From contig NZ_VTWT01000003.1 in NCBI RefSeq assembly GCF_008727925.1, positions 62,001 to 126,000 on the forward strand: a stretch of DNA of 64,000 nucleotides, given 5' to 3'. Both the position numbers and the translations under genes were made by a program. Under the pieces are notes generated by a model. It saw only the letters and a program-made list of their open reading frames with translations, had not been told where the DNA came from and ran no database searches. The DNA comes from Adhaeribacter soli. Lineage in GTDB: Bacteria; Bacteroidota; Bacteroidia; Cytophagales; Hymenobacteraceae. Of the stretch, positions 9,085-57,675 are shown piece by piece (within the stretch, counting starts at the first letter, position 1; the number at the start of each line of letters is the position of its first letter).

Positions 9085-9140
9085 CGTCATCTCGACGCTA
9101 GGAGAGATCTCATCTGGTTGGTAGTAATGTTTGCTATAGA
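9085..9140. repeat. Solo arm of the GTCATCTCGACG family
   Basis: CGTCATCTCGACGCTAGGAG followed by AGATCTCATCTGGTTGGTAG matches the left arm of the palindromes at 14445 and 33161, but no second arm follows. The arm continues into TGTTTGCTATAG, as does the solo arm at 53768-53822, and both solo arms lie beside a copy of the 190-200 bp structured repeat. Confidence 0.7.
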
Positions 9141-9222
9141 GTTTTTAAGTTACAAAGCTTACCGTTCTTATAGCAAGCTTTTTGCTTTAATCAATAACTT
9201 TTCACTTTCATAGTTTACTTTT

Positions 9223-9410
9223 CCCTCAAGCCGGGTGGCTTCGTTTCTATTCCAAAGCCGTGGATTCACCTGCCCTTCCGGGCTGCCTCCTACGTCGGCA
9301 CCGGTTAATCCAAAGTCTTTGGAACAGAAACTGGGATCAGTTTGCCTCCGATTAAACTATATTTTTCTTATCGACTAACGTGGTTTCAGGGGCGCTGCGC
9401 TGGCGATATT
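9223..9410 (-). ncRNA. Copy A of a dispersed structured repeat, possible noncoding RNA of unknown class
   Basis: Read on the minus strand, this copy begins TATCGCCAGCGCAGCGCCCC and ends GAAGCCACCCGGCTTGAGGG. Both ends are shared almost exactly with copies at 45809-46004 and 53498-53697. Between them lies a long stem closed by GTTTCT and AGAAAC. In this copy the stem continues as TTCCAAAG paired with CTTTGGAA. Its head holds a GCCC-GGAA-GGGC hairpin. The other copies pair the same positions with different bases, which is evidence for RNA structure. No open frame is conserved. Rfam class is unknown to me; promoter not identified. Confidence 0.55.
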
Positions 9411-9666
9411 GGGAAATCCGATAACGTGAAATCATGATAATCCTTTAATCCTTAAAATCGTGTTCAGACATAAACGTGAATCGATAATGTGAAAAGGCAC
9501 CCACAAGGGATGCCCCTACATTTTAATCCTGATTTTTAATTCTGAAAATTTTATAATTCTGAAAATTCAGATTCAAACGATTGAAAATCATGCACTTCTA
9601 AAAAATCCAGAAAATCTTGTTCAGACAAAAACGCTACCTTTACCACGTGAAAAACCATCCTCTTAC
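9411..9666. repeat. Intergenic tract of AATCC/GTTCAGACA repeats
   Basis: The tract contains AATCGTGTTCAGACA at about 9460 and AATCTTGTTCAGACA at about 9611, spaced by runs such as AATCCTTTAATCC and TAATTCTGAAAAT. A small hairpin GGCACCC-ACAA-GGGATGCC sits near 9497. This is the same repeat family as at 2300-2355, 33000-33042, 53268-53345 and 57500-57640. No gene is visible. Confidence 0.65.
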
Positions 9667-14317: not shown

Positions 14318-14351
14318 CAAAAAAAGCCCCGTATTGCTACGGGGCTTTTTT
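14318..14351 (+). terminator. Terminator of the phosphate transporter gene
   Basis: AGCCCCGTA (14325-14333), loop TTGC, TACGGGGCT (14338-14346), then a T-run; an A-run precedes it, so it could work in both directions. A near-identical terminator recurs at 14936-14968. Confidence 0.9.
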
Positions 14352-14444: not shown

Positions 14445-14548
14445 CCGGTCATCTCGACGCCAGGAGAGATCCCATCAAGTTGGTAGTACCTTTTATTCTG
14501 GCTTTACTACCTCATTCCGGTCATCTCTCTTGGCGTCGAGATGACCGG
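14445..14548. repeat. Imperfect palindrome, GTCATCTCGACG family
   Basis: The left end CCGGTCATCTCGACGCCAGG and the right end CTTGGCGTCGAGATGACCGG are inverted copies. The middle carries ATCAAGTTGGTAGTACC and a short second GTCATCTCTC. The related, better-paired element is at 33161-33260. No coding capacity. Confidence 0.85.
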
Positions 14549-14935: not shown

Positions 14936-14968
14936 CAAAAAAGCCCCGTACTGCTACGGGGCTTTTTA
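14936..14968 (+). terminator. Second copy of the phosphate-transporter terminator
   Basis: AGCCCCGTA (14942-14950), loop CTGC, TACGGGGCT (14955-14963), then T. It differs from 14325-14346 in the loop. It now lies between the decayed fragment and the converging gene at 15010, and with flanking A and T runs it may terminate both strands. Confidence 0.85.
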
Positions 14969-27387: not shown

Positions 27388-27421
27388 AAAAAAGCCCTGT
27401 ATTGCTACAGGGCTTTTTTTA
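27388..27421. terminator. Bidirectional terminator between comF and gldJ
   Basis: AGCCCTGTA (27393-27401), loop TTGC, TACAGGGCT (27406-27414), with an A-run before and a T-run after. It lies between the converging ends of comF and gldJ. Confidence 0.9.
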
Positions 27422-27437
27422 TAATACTTGGTAATGC

Positions 27438-28619
27438 TTATCTGTTAGAACCAGCGTTGATCATGGCGCAACGGAAACCGATTGTTGCAGTAGCGGAGTC
27501 CTGAGCCAGGAAGCGGCGGGTACCAGGAGATAACCAGTAAGCAACATCTTTCCAGGAACCACCTTTGTAAACGCGAACTTTATCGGTGATCAGGGACTGG
27601 AAGCCTTTTGCGTCGTAACCGGTTTCTTCATCCAGAAAACCGTTCCGGCGGAAAGGGTTAAGGTCTTCCACATCCTGGAATGAACCAGGACGGTAAATGT
27701 CCTGCACCCACTCATTCACGTTACCAGCCATGTTGTACAGACCGTAATCGTTTGGCGGATAATTGTAGATATATTCTGTGATCATCGCACCATCGTTCAG
27801 GGCACCGGCAATACCGGCGTAGTCACCACGGCCGCGCTTGAAGTTAGCCAGGAACTGACCCATGTTCTTGCCGTAAGGGTTACGCACCTGGTGGCCATCC
27901 CAAGGATAGATACGCTTGTTCATCTGGTTTTCGTCGTCGGTTAACTGCGTACCGATCAAAGCCTGGGCAGCATATTCCCACTCAGCTTCTGTCGGGAGAC
28001 GGTAGTTCGGAAGCACAACGCCAGACTCCAATGGAATGCGGCCTGTTCCTTCCGGAATCTCTACACCAGCTTCTTTGGCTAAGTTCTGGTTAACTTTCTG
28101 GGTTCTCCAGGTACAGTAATCGTTGGCCTGCTCCCAGCTTACACCCACAACCGGGAAGAAACGGAAACCAGGGTAACGCAGGTAATGGTCTACGTAAGGG
28201 TCGTTGAAGGAAAGCTGACGAGCCCAAACGGTAGTGTCCGGCAAAGCAGACTTATAGAATTCTTCCGAAGAGTCCTTCTTAATATAGAACAAATATTCTA
28301 ACCAGTGGATGTTGGCAACTTCAGCCTCGTCCATATAGAAGGAAGCTACCGTTACCGTTCTTTCCAGGTTATCGCGGGTCATCGCCAAATCTTCTTCCGT
28401 AGAACCCAGCGTGGTACGGCCGCCTTCTATGAAGATCAGACCCGGACCCTCCGGCTGCCCGGAATAATCGGCTACTTTAAATCCATCGTCCTGGTTAAAC
28501 GCAATACCGGTAGTGGTACTAGCATCACCTGGATTGGTGCTGGTCGGGTTGCCTTTGTTGCAGGACGACAACAGTACTAAGCCGGTCGCTGCATAGGTTA
28601 GATACTTGAAAAGATTCAT
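27438..28619 (-). CDS. gldJ: Gliding motility / type IX secretion lipoprotein GldJ
   Basis: A 393-residue outer-membrane-associated lipoprotein with Cys20 in the lipobox VLLSSC. The body is a formylglycine-generating-enzyme-like (SUMF1/FGE-sulfatase) fold that has no known catalysis in Gld proteins. Diagnostic strings are GPGLIFIEGG near 59-68, SFYMDEAEVAN, ALPDTTVWARQL and GVSWEQANDYCTWR, which match GldJ better than GldK. GldJ is required for stable assembly of the T9SS core and gliding. Its start (ATG at 28617-28619) is 66 bases after the porP/sprF-like stop on the same strand, so the two may be co-transcribed, and they are functionally linked. Confidence 0.9.
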   Translation of the reverse strand: MNLFKYLTYAATGLVLLSSCNKGNPTSTNPGDASTTTGIAFNQDDGFKVADYSGQPEGPGLIFIEGGRTTLGSTEEDLAMTRDNLERTVTVASFYMDEAEVANIHWLEYLFYIKKDSSEEFYKSALPDTTVWARQLSFNDPYVDHYLRYPGFRFFPVVGVSWEQANDYCTWRTQKVNQNLAKEAGVEIPEGTGRIPLESGVVLPNYRLPTEAEWEYAAQALIGTQLTDDENQMNKRIYPWDGHQVRNPYGKNMGQFLANFKRGRGDYAGIAGALNDGAMITEYIYNYPPNDYGLYNMAGNVNEWVQDIYRPGSFQDVEDLNPFRRNGFLDEETGYDAKGFQSLITDKVRVYKGGSWKDVAYWLSPGTRRFLAQDSATATIGFRCAMINAGSNR

Positions 28620-33042: not shown

Positions 33043-33160
33043 TTTGAGGGTTGCTACTCAAATAGTACAGGTGGTCAAATGTGGAGTTTATTCTAAGTAG
33101 GATTATTAAACAACTACAGGTAAAACCTTCGCCTACGGCAGGCACCGAATCTTCTGAACC

Positions 33161-33260
33161 CGTCATCTCGACGTCAGGAGAGATCTCATCAAGATGGTAG
33201 TACCTTTTATTCTGGCTATTCTACTTTATTCCGGAGATCTCTCCTGACGTCGAGATGACG
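33161..33260. repeat. Best-preserved GTCATCTCGACG palindromic element (27-bp perfect arms)
   Basis: The left arm 33161-33187 and the right arm 33234-33260 are perfect reverse complements, starting CGTCATCTCGACGTCAGGAG, with a 46-base middle holding ATCAAGATGGTAGTACC. Other members are at 14445 (two arms), 2065 (diverged) and the solo arms at 9085 and 53768. No coding capacity. Confidence 0.9.
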
Positions 33261-43843: not shown

Positions 43844-44410
43844 ATTTTATTTAAGTAGAATTGTTTACGTACTGTTTTTAACCCCTATACTCTATTCAGG
43901 CGCTCCGGTTTCCGGAATTTATTCAGCGATTAGAAATCGTAGGCAAGATTAAGAAATTCAGCTCATGTCTGCCAAAAACTTCCGGGAATTTTCTTTGTCT
44001 CATTACAAAATAAAGATGTCATGTAGCGAGACCAAATCCATCAGGCTAGAGAAATGTAGGTCATTCCGAGCGAAGCCGAGGAAACTTATACATACTACTA
44101 TGGCATTTGAGTGTAGCAACGAAATGCCTTTCTTTCGTGATTGGTATGCGATAGTTTCCTCAGAGCGCCGCTCACAAGTTTCGCTTCTCCTCGCGCTCAC
44201 TTGTGTTCGGGATGACGCGATGAAGTAGCTTCGCCGGAAGGCTATGGCATCAGGAAGTAGGTATCAGGACACAAGTATCGAGACAGAAATGTTGGGAAAC
44301 TTCGCCGTTTTAGCTGCTTAAGAAAAAAGCCTCTATGAATTTTCCAAATAGCTCTAACCGCTCTTTCCTTTTTTTAGGCTATAGTATCTAAGGAAAAAAG
44401 TACGAAAAGC
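43844..44410. other. Gap with a divergent GAGCGAAGCCGAG repeat
   Basis: From 44055 to 44222 runs a repeat beginning GGTCATTCCGAGCGAAGCCG then AGGAAACTTATAC and ending ACTTGTGTTCGGGATGACG; the ends are inverted versions of each other and belong with 1970-2053 and 57390-57450. Near 44245-44285, AAGTAGGTATCAGGACACAAG resembles a string near 39245. No gene is visible. Confidence 0.65.
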
Positions 44411-45710: not shown

Positions 45711-45808
45711 TACCGTTAGCTGAAGCAGGCGGCAATGAAATTGTCTGAACTGTGATTTTTTTTGATTGCTTTGATTCCTGTGATTTTCTTTAGTAGAGCT
45801 TTCACGCA

Positions 45809-46004
45809 TATCGCCAGCGCAGCGCCCCTGAAAACCACGTTAGCAAAAAACTAAACTAAAAGAAAGCCAGCCACGAAGGAAAGCTGACACCAGTTTCTAA
45901 GGAGAAAGACTTTGGATTCACCGGTGCCGAGGCACGAGGCAGCCCGGAAGGGCAGGTGAATCCACGGCTTTCGAGTTAGAAACGAAGCCACCCGGCTTGA
46001 GGGG
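45809..46004 (+). ncRNA. Copy B of the dispersed structured repeat
   Basis: It begins TATCGCCAGCGCAGCGCCCC and ends GAAGCCACCCGGCTTGAGGG. In this copy the outer stem is GTTTCTAA/TTAGAAAC, then GAAAG/CTTTC, then GGATTCACC/GGTGAATCC, capped by GCCC-GGAA-GGGC. The bases differ from copies A and C while the pairing is retained. A GTCTGAAC repeat precedes it. It ends 105 bases before the radA promoter element. No conserved open frame. Confidence 0.55.
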
Positions 46005-46108
46005 GAAAGCTAACCAAAAGCTGAAAAGCCACTGATGAAGCAGCAAACAACAATCAAAGCACAAAACCCAAACAAAAAATCAAATAAAAACAAACCCTCA
46101 TATATCCT

Positions 46109-46119: not shown

Positions 46120-47499
46120 ATGGCAAAAATAAAAACCTCCTACTTCTGCCAGAACTGTGGCGCCCAATCGGCTAAATGGATCGGCCGGTGCCCGGCTTGC
46201 GGCGAGTGGAACACCTACGTAGAAGAAGTAATTCAGCGCGAAGAAGCAAACACCGTAGCCGCCTGGAAACCCGTTTCCACCTCCCGGCAGGTAGCCAGCA
46301 AACCCAAACCGCTTTCCGAGATCAGCTTCGAGGCCGAATCGCGGATCGTAACCAACGACCAGGAACTGAACCGGGTGTTGGGCGGCGGCATCGTGCCCGG
46401 CTCCCTGATCCTGATCGGCGGCGAACCCGGCATCGGGAAATCGACTTTGATGCTGCAGATTGCCATGTCGCTGAAAAACCAGCGCGTGCTTTACGTTTCC
46501 GGAGAAGAAAGCGAACTCCAGATTAAAATGCGGGCCGAGCGTTTAGGTACGAACCACAACAATTGCTTCATCTTAACCGAAACCGGCACCCAGAATATCT
46601 TCAAACAAATAGAGCAACTGCAACCAGAACTGTTGGTGGTCGATTCTATTCAAACCCTGCATTCAGCTTTTATCGAAAGCGGCGCCGGCAGCATTTCGCA
46701 GGTGCGCGAGTGTACCGCCGAACTGCTGAAATACGCCAAGGAAAGCGGCACCCCGGTTTTCCTCATCGGACATATCACCAAAGAAGGAAACCTGGCCGGC
46801 CCGAAGATTCTGGAGCACATGGTAGATACCGTATTGCAGTTCGAAGGCGACCGCCACATGACCTACCGCATTCTCCGCACCACCAAAAATCGTTTCGGCT
46901 CCACTTCCGAACTCGGTATTTACGAAATGCAGGGCTCCGGCTTGCGGCAGGTAAACAACCCTTCCGAAATCCTGATCTCGCAGCGCGAAGAACATTTGAG
47001 CGGCATTTCCATTGGGGCTACCCTGGAAGGAAACCGTCCTTTACTAATCGAAGTGCAAAGCTTGGTAAGCCCGGCCACGTATGGCACGCCGCAGCGCTCC
47101 AGTACCGGCTACGATGCCAAACGCCTGAACATGCTCTTAGCCGTTCTGGAAAAACGCGGCGGCTTTAAACTGGGCACGCAAGACGTGTTCCTCAACATTG
47201 CCGGCGGCCTGAAAGTAGAAGACCCGGCCATCGATTTAGCTGTTTGCGCTTCCATCCTTTCTTCTTTCGATGATCTGGCCATACCAAGTACTACCTGCTT
47301 TGCCGCCGAAGTTGGACTTAGCGGCGAGATCCGCGCGGTGAACCGGATCGAGAACCGGATCAGCGAAGCAGAGAAACTGGGCTTTAAAGAAATTTATATT
47401 TCGAAGTTCAACGTGAAAGGGCTCGATCTGAAAGGCCGGGGTATTAAGATTCACACAGTTAGTAAGCTGGAAGAAGTGCTGAGCGGGTTGTTTGGCTAA
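46120..47499 (+). CDS. radA: DNA repair protein RadA (branch-migration ATPase)
   Basis: A RecA-like ATPase that processes recombination intermediates. The 459 residues have a four-Cys zinc finger (C10, C13, C24, C27), Walker A GGEPGIGKST near 100-109, the RadA-specific KNRFGS near 256-261 and a C-terminal Lon-protease-like domain (DVFLNIAGGLKVEDPAIDLA). Length and order are those of standard RadA/Sms. The ATG is only three bases after a TACATTTG promoter element, with no SD. It is transcribed alone. Confidence 0.97.
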   Translation: MAKIKTSYFCQNCGAQSAKWIGRCPACGEWNTYVEEVIQREEANTVAAWKPVSTSRQVASKPKPLSEISFEAESRIVTNDQELNRVLGGGIVPGSLILIGGEPGIGKSTLMLQIAMSLKNQRVLYVSGEESELQIKMRAERLGTNHNNCFILTETGTQNIFKQIEQLQPELLVVDSIQTLHSAFIESGAGSISQVRECTAELLKYAKESGTPVFLIGHITKEGNLAGPKILEHMVDTVLQFEGDRHMTYRILRTTKNRFGSTSELGIYEMQGSGLRQVNNPSEILISQREEHLSGISIGATLEGNRPLLIEVQSLVSPATYGTPQRSSTGYDAKRLNMLLAVLEKRGGFKLGTQDVFLNIAGGLKVEDPAIDLAVCASILSSFDDLAIPSTTCFAAEVGLSGEIRAVNRIENRISEAEKLGFKEIYISKFNVKGLDLKGRGIKIHTVSKLEEVLSGLFG

Positions 47500-53397: not shown

Positions 53398-53497
53398 GCA
53401 CATTATCCGATCAATTCAATATTTGATTGGAATAGTCTGAATCAGAATTCTCAGAATTATAGAATTAGCAGAATTTCTCTAAATCAGATTTCACGCA

Positions 53498-53697
53498 TAT
53501 CGCCAGCGCAGCGCCCCTGAAAACCACGTTAGTTGATAAAAACTAAATAAAAAGAAAGCCTGCAACGGAGGAATGCTGACACCAGTTTCTGTGAGAGCGG
53601 CCTCCAAGCTTATCGGTGCCGACGCAGGAGGCAGCCCGGTAGGGCAGGTAAGGTTGCAGCCGCGAACGCAGAAACGAAGCCACCCGGCTTGAGGGAG
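53498..53697 (+). ncRNA. Copy C of the dispersed structured repeat
   Basis: The ends match the other two copies (TATCGCCAGCGCAGCGCCCC; GAAGCCACCCGGCTTGAGGG). In this copy the inner stems are GTTTCTG/CAGAAAC, GCGGC/GCCGC, and AAGCTTA with TAAGGTT (one mismatch); the cap reads GCCC-GGTA-GGGC. The arms differ from copies A and B while pairing remains. A solo GTCATCTCGACG arm follows about 70 bases later, as it does beside copy A. Confidence 0.55.
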
Positions 53698-53767
53698 AAG
53701 CTAAATTAAAAGCAGAAAGCCGTGAGTTAAGAGTTGAAGCTTGTTTGAAATCGAAATAAAAAAATAG

Positions 53768-53822
53768 CTATAGCAAACCAGACTACCAACTTGATGGGAT
53801 CTCTCCTATCGTCGAGATAACC
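53768..53822. repeat. Solo arm of the GTCATCTCGACG family
   Basis: CTATAGCAAACCAGACTACC then AACTTGATGGGATCTCTCCT ATCGTCGAGATAACC is the reverse complement of the arm at 9085-9140, including the TTTGCTATAG edge. Confidence 0.7.
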
Positions 53823-53859
53823 GTGAAAAAATAAAAGGCACCTCTATCAACAAAAAGCT

Positions 53860-56945: not shown

Positions 56946-57675
56946 CGCAAAATGATTTAACTCCGTTGGGTGGTTTTTATTGCAGGAATTATAGCGTTTG
57001 CCGCCTTCTTTAATCCCGTCATTTTATACCATTTTGTCATCCTGAGCGACAGCGAAGGACCTCGTCGGCTCTAAGTAGTTTTTCAGCCTGAATTGCTACT
57101 GTTTTAATTGTTTCAAAAGTAAACCCTCTTTTGTTTTAGCTGTAGAAAAGAGCACCACCTTTGCTCCTTTCAAGGTTAGTTCTAACCATCAGTAATTTCT
57201 TATTCAAATTTCATTGCCGTCTGGTTTAGCTGACGGAAAAGTGGTTGCTCAAATAGAGGCTTGAGGCAAAGCATCTAATTTAATAAGATAGAAATTTGGC
57301 TAAAGCCGGAATACAGGCTGCTTTAAACCGTCAGCTAAAGCAGACGGCAATGAAACCGCATATTTCAAATTTAACCTGTAAGCCAAATTTCGCTACGCTC
57401 GCTTTGCCATAGAAGTATGAATAAGTTTCCTCGGCGTTGCTCGGAATGACGCAAATTGTATGGCTGGTTTCCCTAAGTTGACGGCATTGGGGTAAGCCCT
57501 GTCCGCACATTTTCATAGAAATCAGAAAAATCAAATAAATCATAGTTCCGACAAATGTCCTGTAAATCCTTAAATCCCGTAAATCCTGATTCTGAAAACA
57601 CCCTGCCCGAAGCTTCGTATAGCAGAATTCTGATCCGAACAACGATTAATGAACAACGATTAACAAAACAAAATC
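56946..57675. other. 730-bp gap filled with several repeats
   Basis: Contents: TCATCCTGAGCGACAGCGAA near 57037; the 28-bp inverted repeat 57209-57355; a GAGCAACGCCGAGGAAACTT string near 57420; TTAAGTTGACGGCATTGGGG near 57475 (also near 14815); and AATCC/GTTCCGACAAA repeats at 57530-57640. No gene is visible. The promoter of the SDR gene at 57676 is expected near 57640 but not identified. Confidence 0.6.
57209..57355. repeat. 28-bp inverted repeat around a 91-base centre
   Basis: Left arm 57209-57236 (TTTCATTGCCGTCTGGTTTA...) and right arm 57328-57355 are reverse complements with one mismatch in 28. A related string GGCGGCAATGAAATTGTC is near 45730. No coding capacity. Confidence 0.85.

Follow-up and report, generated by a model that had tools for sequence, protein, structure and literature searches.

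The repeat and its surroundings in Adhaeribacter soli

We analysed 64,000 nucleotides of Adhaeribacter soli (Cytophagales, Hymenobacteraceae; contig NZ_VTWT01000003.1, positions 62,001 to 126,000), hereafter the window. Three copies of the same repeat of about 205 bp, here called A, B and C, lie between its genes (Table 1). The repeat centres on a core RNA, around which a 5' block, an AATCC tract, a linker and a 3' arm are additions. An earlier reading of the window made from its letters alone (the sequence-only reading) had proposed that A and C, each followed by an arm with the same edge, are parts of one composite element that encodes no protein. Indeed, both arms carry the TTTGCTATAG edge on the same side of the core, and no protein-coding frame of the composite's own was seen. 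The proposed distance of 70-90 bases between the 3' hairpin, which ends in GAGGG, and the arm holds for C (~86 bp) and is slightly exceeded in A (~95 bp). Copy B was rightly described as lacking the arm, the radA reading frame beginning beyond it at 46120. Allowing one mismatch at most, the window contains the arm motif GTCATCTCGACG seven times, where 0.12 occurrences would be expected. The repeats described ahead of the 5' block were also found genome-wide: an AATCC/GTCTGAAC-type tract (TCTGAA/AATCC-type) lies 5' of 27 of 29 cores, compared with 1/29 in a downstream control of the same length.

The core is a predicted structured RNA

On one strand, the final ~115 nt at the 3' side of the core encode a long branched hairpin and then a short one, the loop of which forms a pseudoknot with bases just downstream. 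An RNAalifold consensus of 24 copies has compensatory change in 16 of 41 pairs, reflecting about four stem types. In an alignment of 43 sequences, pairing holds in 97.5% of 1,135 pair cells, and compensatory change is seen in 19 of 27 pairs; neither the paired percentage nor the covariation score was reached by any of 500 shuffles, and slid controls are far lower. For the pseudoknot, 40 of 43 sequences (17.6 when shuffled) have a 3' hairpin loop complementary to the three bases that follow GA, and these 3 bp occur in the variants CCC/GGG, CGC/GCG, GCC/GGC and CTC/GAG. Because G-U pairs outnumber A-C mismatches in the core (37 versus 4), the modelled strand is the strand under selection, and this asymmetry points to a fold of RNA, though a single-strand DNA fold would show such a bias too. 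On this comparative evidence the core is, by prediction, a strand-specific structured RNA, more than a mobile repeat. The sequence-only reading missed two things: the conserved RNA structure of the core, which belongs to a family spread across the order, and the separate nature of the arm, a hairpin resembling repetitive extragenic palindromic (REP) sequences.

At three loci of one genome (L026, L028 and L020 of G000), extra GC-rich hairpins (CCCCGAAAGC..GGGG type) sit in loops of the fold and leave the stems untouched.

Distribution of the core and searches for known families

Of 150 genomes of the family, 57 contain the core according to a covariance model. The A. soli genome itself has 33 matches and A. 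terrigena at least 40 scored matches, out of 85 first-look candidates. With a refined version covering the 3' ~125 nt, the core also turned up in other families of the order, a single genome having as many as 43 matches at E <= 1e-3; a class-wide sample of 395 genomes, with few candidates scored per genome, gave no core RNA outside the order. Exact search with the 19-base 5' motif returned A. terrigena and single matches in unrelated bacteria, the latter read as chance, as well as one match on a viral contig.

Rfam 15 gave no match in the window at the gathering cut-off, and none for the relatives, searched at E <= 1, reached it, HEARO included. Copy C has a single structured match of bacterial type, IMES-1, whose 18.7 bits fall far short of the cut-off of 81. 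Neither tRNA nor tmRNA was found. A plasmid-borne element was considered and rejected, there being no PLSDB match. The titles and abstracts searched contained no description of this RNA repeat family. The core RNA is previously undescribed and multi-copy in several families of one order. It resembles the orphan structured RNA motifs of comparative genomics in having a conserved fold with compensatory change and no known function, and differs from them in its dozens of copies per genome and its random neighbours.

Arm and core form one composite

In A. terrigena, 25 of 30 cores, all picked by similarity to copy C (a type 1 query), have an arm downstream in sense, at a modal distance of 118 bp and mostly 117-121 bp from the GAGGG start; none of the 30 has an arm upstream in either orientation, and none has one in antisense. 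The A. terrigena orthologues of A and C have an arm at the corresponding position. Two genomes of a second genus have an arm-type hairpin within 300 bp of 7/8 and 9/10 copies, which mostly starts 114-116 bp past the pseudoknot GAG and in several copies lies further away; its short stem varies (TTTC/GAAA, TCTC/GAGA, TCCC/GGGA). These relatives bear out the proposal that A and C belong to one composite.

The A. soli genome presents a different picture, with a 3' arm at only 3 of 29 cores although the arm has 59 matches overall, many forming inverted palindromic pairs 73-74 bp apart. The sequence-only reading had held that arms mostly independent of cores would speak against its composite. This is literally the situation in A. 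soli, and judged from that genome alone such independence looks right; A. terrigena and the second genus overturn it and show decay instead. More specifically, at the orthologous sites 42k and 189k, an A. terrigena arm faces eroded sequence in A. soli. Given this erosion and the arms shared at the orthologous A and C sites, the composite is older than the split of the two species, and it probably predates the genus. In the A. soli genome it has decayed, most arms being eroded. The arm is a separate REP-like hairpin, also found alone and as inverted pairs.

At four loci (L084, L085, L093 and L022) two cores stand head to head, a few hundred bp apart or closer, echoing the inverted arm pairs. 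Another repeat family of the window, TCATTCCGAGCGAAGCCGAGG..., at 1970-2053, 44053-44105 and 57405-57457, is similar to the arm-type hairpins found in the second genus.

Table 1. Positions of the repeat copies, their parts and core-less arm pairs in the window.
Feature	Position	Strand	Remark
Copy A repeat	9223..9410	-	
Copy A 3' arm, REP-like hairpin GATCTCTCCTAGCGTCGAGATGAC	9085..9127	-	arm also in A. terrigena orthologue
Copy A A/T-rich linker with CTATAGCAAAC edge	9128..9222	-	25+ A. terrigena copies have a homologous linker
Copy A 3' hairpin and pseudoknot (GAAGCCACCCGGCTTGAGGG)	9223..9242	-	covariation of loop and downstream triplet, 40/43
Copy A long branched hairpin, stem type 4	9243..9334	-	covariation
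Copy A conserved 5' block (ATATCGCCAGCGCAGCGCC...), genus-specific	9376..9410	-	
Copy A AATCC/GTCTGAAC-type tract, 5' of core	9420..9640	none	such a tract at 27/29 cores
Copy B core	45804..46010	+	hairpin 45890-45983, pseudoknot hairpin 45984-46003; no arm
Copy C core, stem type 1	53492..53705	+	hairpin 53583-53675, pseudoknot hairpin 53676-53695
Copy C linker	53696..53781	+	
Copy C 3' arm	53782..53823	+	arm also in A. terrigena orthologue
Palindromic arm pair without core	14445..14548	none	
Palindromic arm pair without core	33159..33260	none	

The window also holds repeated hairpins GCCCCGTA(T/C)TGCTACGGGGC with T-runs (14320-14351, 14937-14967 and 27388-27439), which are probably intrinsic terminators.

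Genomic context and candidate partners

The 148 neighbouring frames have no function in common and show no enriched family; ordinary metabolic and transport genes top the list, and its 25 commonest Pfam families (singletons not listed) include no nuclease, transposase or reverse transcriptase. In tandem contexts the core is co-directional with the flanking genes in 61 cases against 31 (p = 0.002, an optimistic value, since related genomes were counted and the reading frames come from a rough caller). Both orientations occur, the core opposing the upstream gene in 50 of 147 cases. Y1 transposase domains are present in 112 of the 150 genomes of the family, and their presence does not follow the distribution of the core. 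At E <= 1e-5, Y1_Tnp has seven matches in A. soli and none in A. terrigena, a count in which REP-associated tyrosine transposases (RAYTs) are not distinguished from other Y1 enzymes.

At one site a terminator-like hairpin (ATCGCGGC..GCCGCGATCTCTTTTT; L270, G222) stands where two congeners (L198 and L271) have the RNA downstream of the stop codon.

Inheritance and movement

Along about 200 kb of synteny between A. soli and A. terrigena, five of six alignable copies lie at orthologous positions in consistent orientation, and three of the eight A. terrigena copies in the syntenic stretch are absent from A. soli. The sixth alignable copy is copy B, which stands at a synteny breakpoint and has no A. 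terrigena counterpart. In A. terrigena the counterpart of its left neighbour lies at C20:207 kb and that of radA at C20:297 kb, and the blocks beyond are inverted; recombination may have taken place between inverted copies.

Between the two species the hairpin region of A, C and 189k is 87-92% identical, versus 22-62% in the 5' flank. At the orthologous sites 42k and 203k the species differ in stem type with both sides of the stem changed, suggesting exchange between copies. Type 1 stems in all 30 A. terrigena copies were discarded as evidence of homogenisation because these copies had been selected with a type 1 query. From these genome comparisons, most copies appear to be inherited in place, and it is movement that we infer.

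Two loci of one genome (L104 and L118, G001) share a near-identical 5' flank of more than 100 bp, which suggests a recent duplication that included the flank.

Alternative explanations

We consider it probable, with some reserve, that A, B and C are copies of a dispersed protein-less composite repeat around a structured RNA, which spread in the past and is now mostly inherited. The variation of copy number and site presence between genomes is counted in favour of this explanation. Several results weigh against it: the orthology of most alignable copies fits a fixed host RNA equally well, no mobilising enzyme was identified, two other genomes of the second genus have the arm in 0 of 19 copies, and the A. 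terrigena copies owe their selection to copy C. The comparison of empty sites and target-site duplications that the sequence-only reading had advised yielded no support either: none of the four presence/absence sites inspected, including one congener site in another family, was a clean empty site, and no target-site duplication was readable. That reading's statement that the composite moves goes further than these results: five of six alignable copies are orthologous, and although three A. terrigena copies are absent here, neither a target-site duplication nor a clean boundary was found. Miniature inverted-repeat transposable elements (MITEs) and non-autonomous repeats of the ERIC, NEMIS and RUP type are intergenic, multi-copy, protein-less and a few hundred bp long. 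The composite is like them in all these respects; unlike them, it has no terminal inverted repeats (a single 3' arm, with no upstream arm in the 30 A. terrigena copies), no target-site duplication was found and its core fold is kept across families.

A host-functional multi-copy RNA, immobile and selected site by site, for example a 3' untranslated region element acting in transcript ends or protein recruitment, is conceivable, though we doubt it. Such an RNA would fit the orthologous positions, hairpins better conserved than their 5' flanks, the co-directional excess and the congener site where a terminator-like hairpin replaces the RNA of two others; it fits poorly with neighbours of no common family, cores in both orientations and relatives that differ greatly in copy number. 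We regard as unlikely a DNA repeat of the REP/BIME/REPIN type, in which a Y1 (RAYT-type) transposase would recognise the hairpins as single-stranded DNA, the arm being the REP and the core a large variant. The arm is similar to these RAYT-associated repeats, being a short non-coding hairpin between genes, with REPIN-like spacing of its inverted pairs; Y1 domains are widespread in the family, and a single-strand DNA fold would favour G-T over A-C too. However, short palindromic units occurring both solo and as inverted pairs describe the arm and not the core, which is a much larger and more branched structure with a 3-bp pseudoknot and order-wide compensatory change; furthermore, A. terrigena, the genome with the highest number of copies seen, has no RAYT-type match above threshold, and Y1 presence does not track the element. 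It is very improbable that the core is a guide or template RNA (a TnpB/IscB omega RNA, an IS110 bridge RNA, a retron or similar) that lost its protein: the branched hairpin with a 3' pseudoknot and unique sequence right beside it is reminiscent of such RNAs, but there is no Rfam match, HEARO included, and no such protein among the 25 commonest neighbouring families, in which singletons are not listed. Finally, that core and arm are independent repeats meeting by chance in repeat-rich intergenic DNA is scarcely credible. The few armed cores among the many arm matches of A. soli would agree with it, but it is already contradicted by spacing, side and orientation fixed in 25/30 A. terrigena cores and two genomes of the second genus, and by arms common to orthologous sites.

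A model for the composite repeat and its significance

For the dispersed composite repeat that we favour, the core RNA would owe its transcription chiefly to read-through out of the gene upstream of it, and a trans-acting factor recognising the core fold would have copied, or may still copy, the element. Its copies would now mostly be inherited in place, some stems having been swapped whole between copies, probably by gene conversion. A bolder version, which we offer as speculation and which may well be wrong, is that a folded, pseudoknotted RNA, carrying a hairpin arm docked close to its 3' end, uses its own transcript and a borrowed trans-acting enzyme to multiply, and represents an order-wide new class of RNA-based repeat in bacteria. 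Eukaryotic short interspersed nuclear elements (SINEs) follow a comparable logic of RNA multiplying through its own transcript.

Structured RNAs are mostly single-copy, and bacterial dispersed repeats mostly lack a fold conserved between families. A covarying pseudoknotted RNA that reaches dozens of copies per genome throughout an order, and is not in Rfam, is thus unusual. This family permits a direct test of whether bacterial protein-less repeats spread, or persist, as RNA, and the models, coordinates and orthologous sites from our analysis enable that test.
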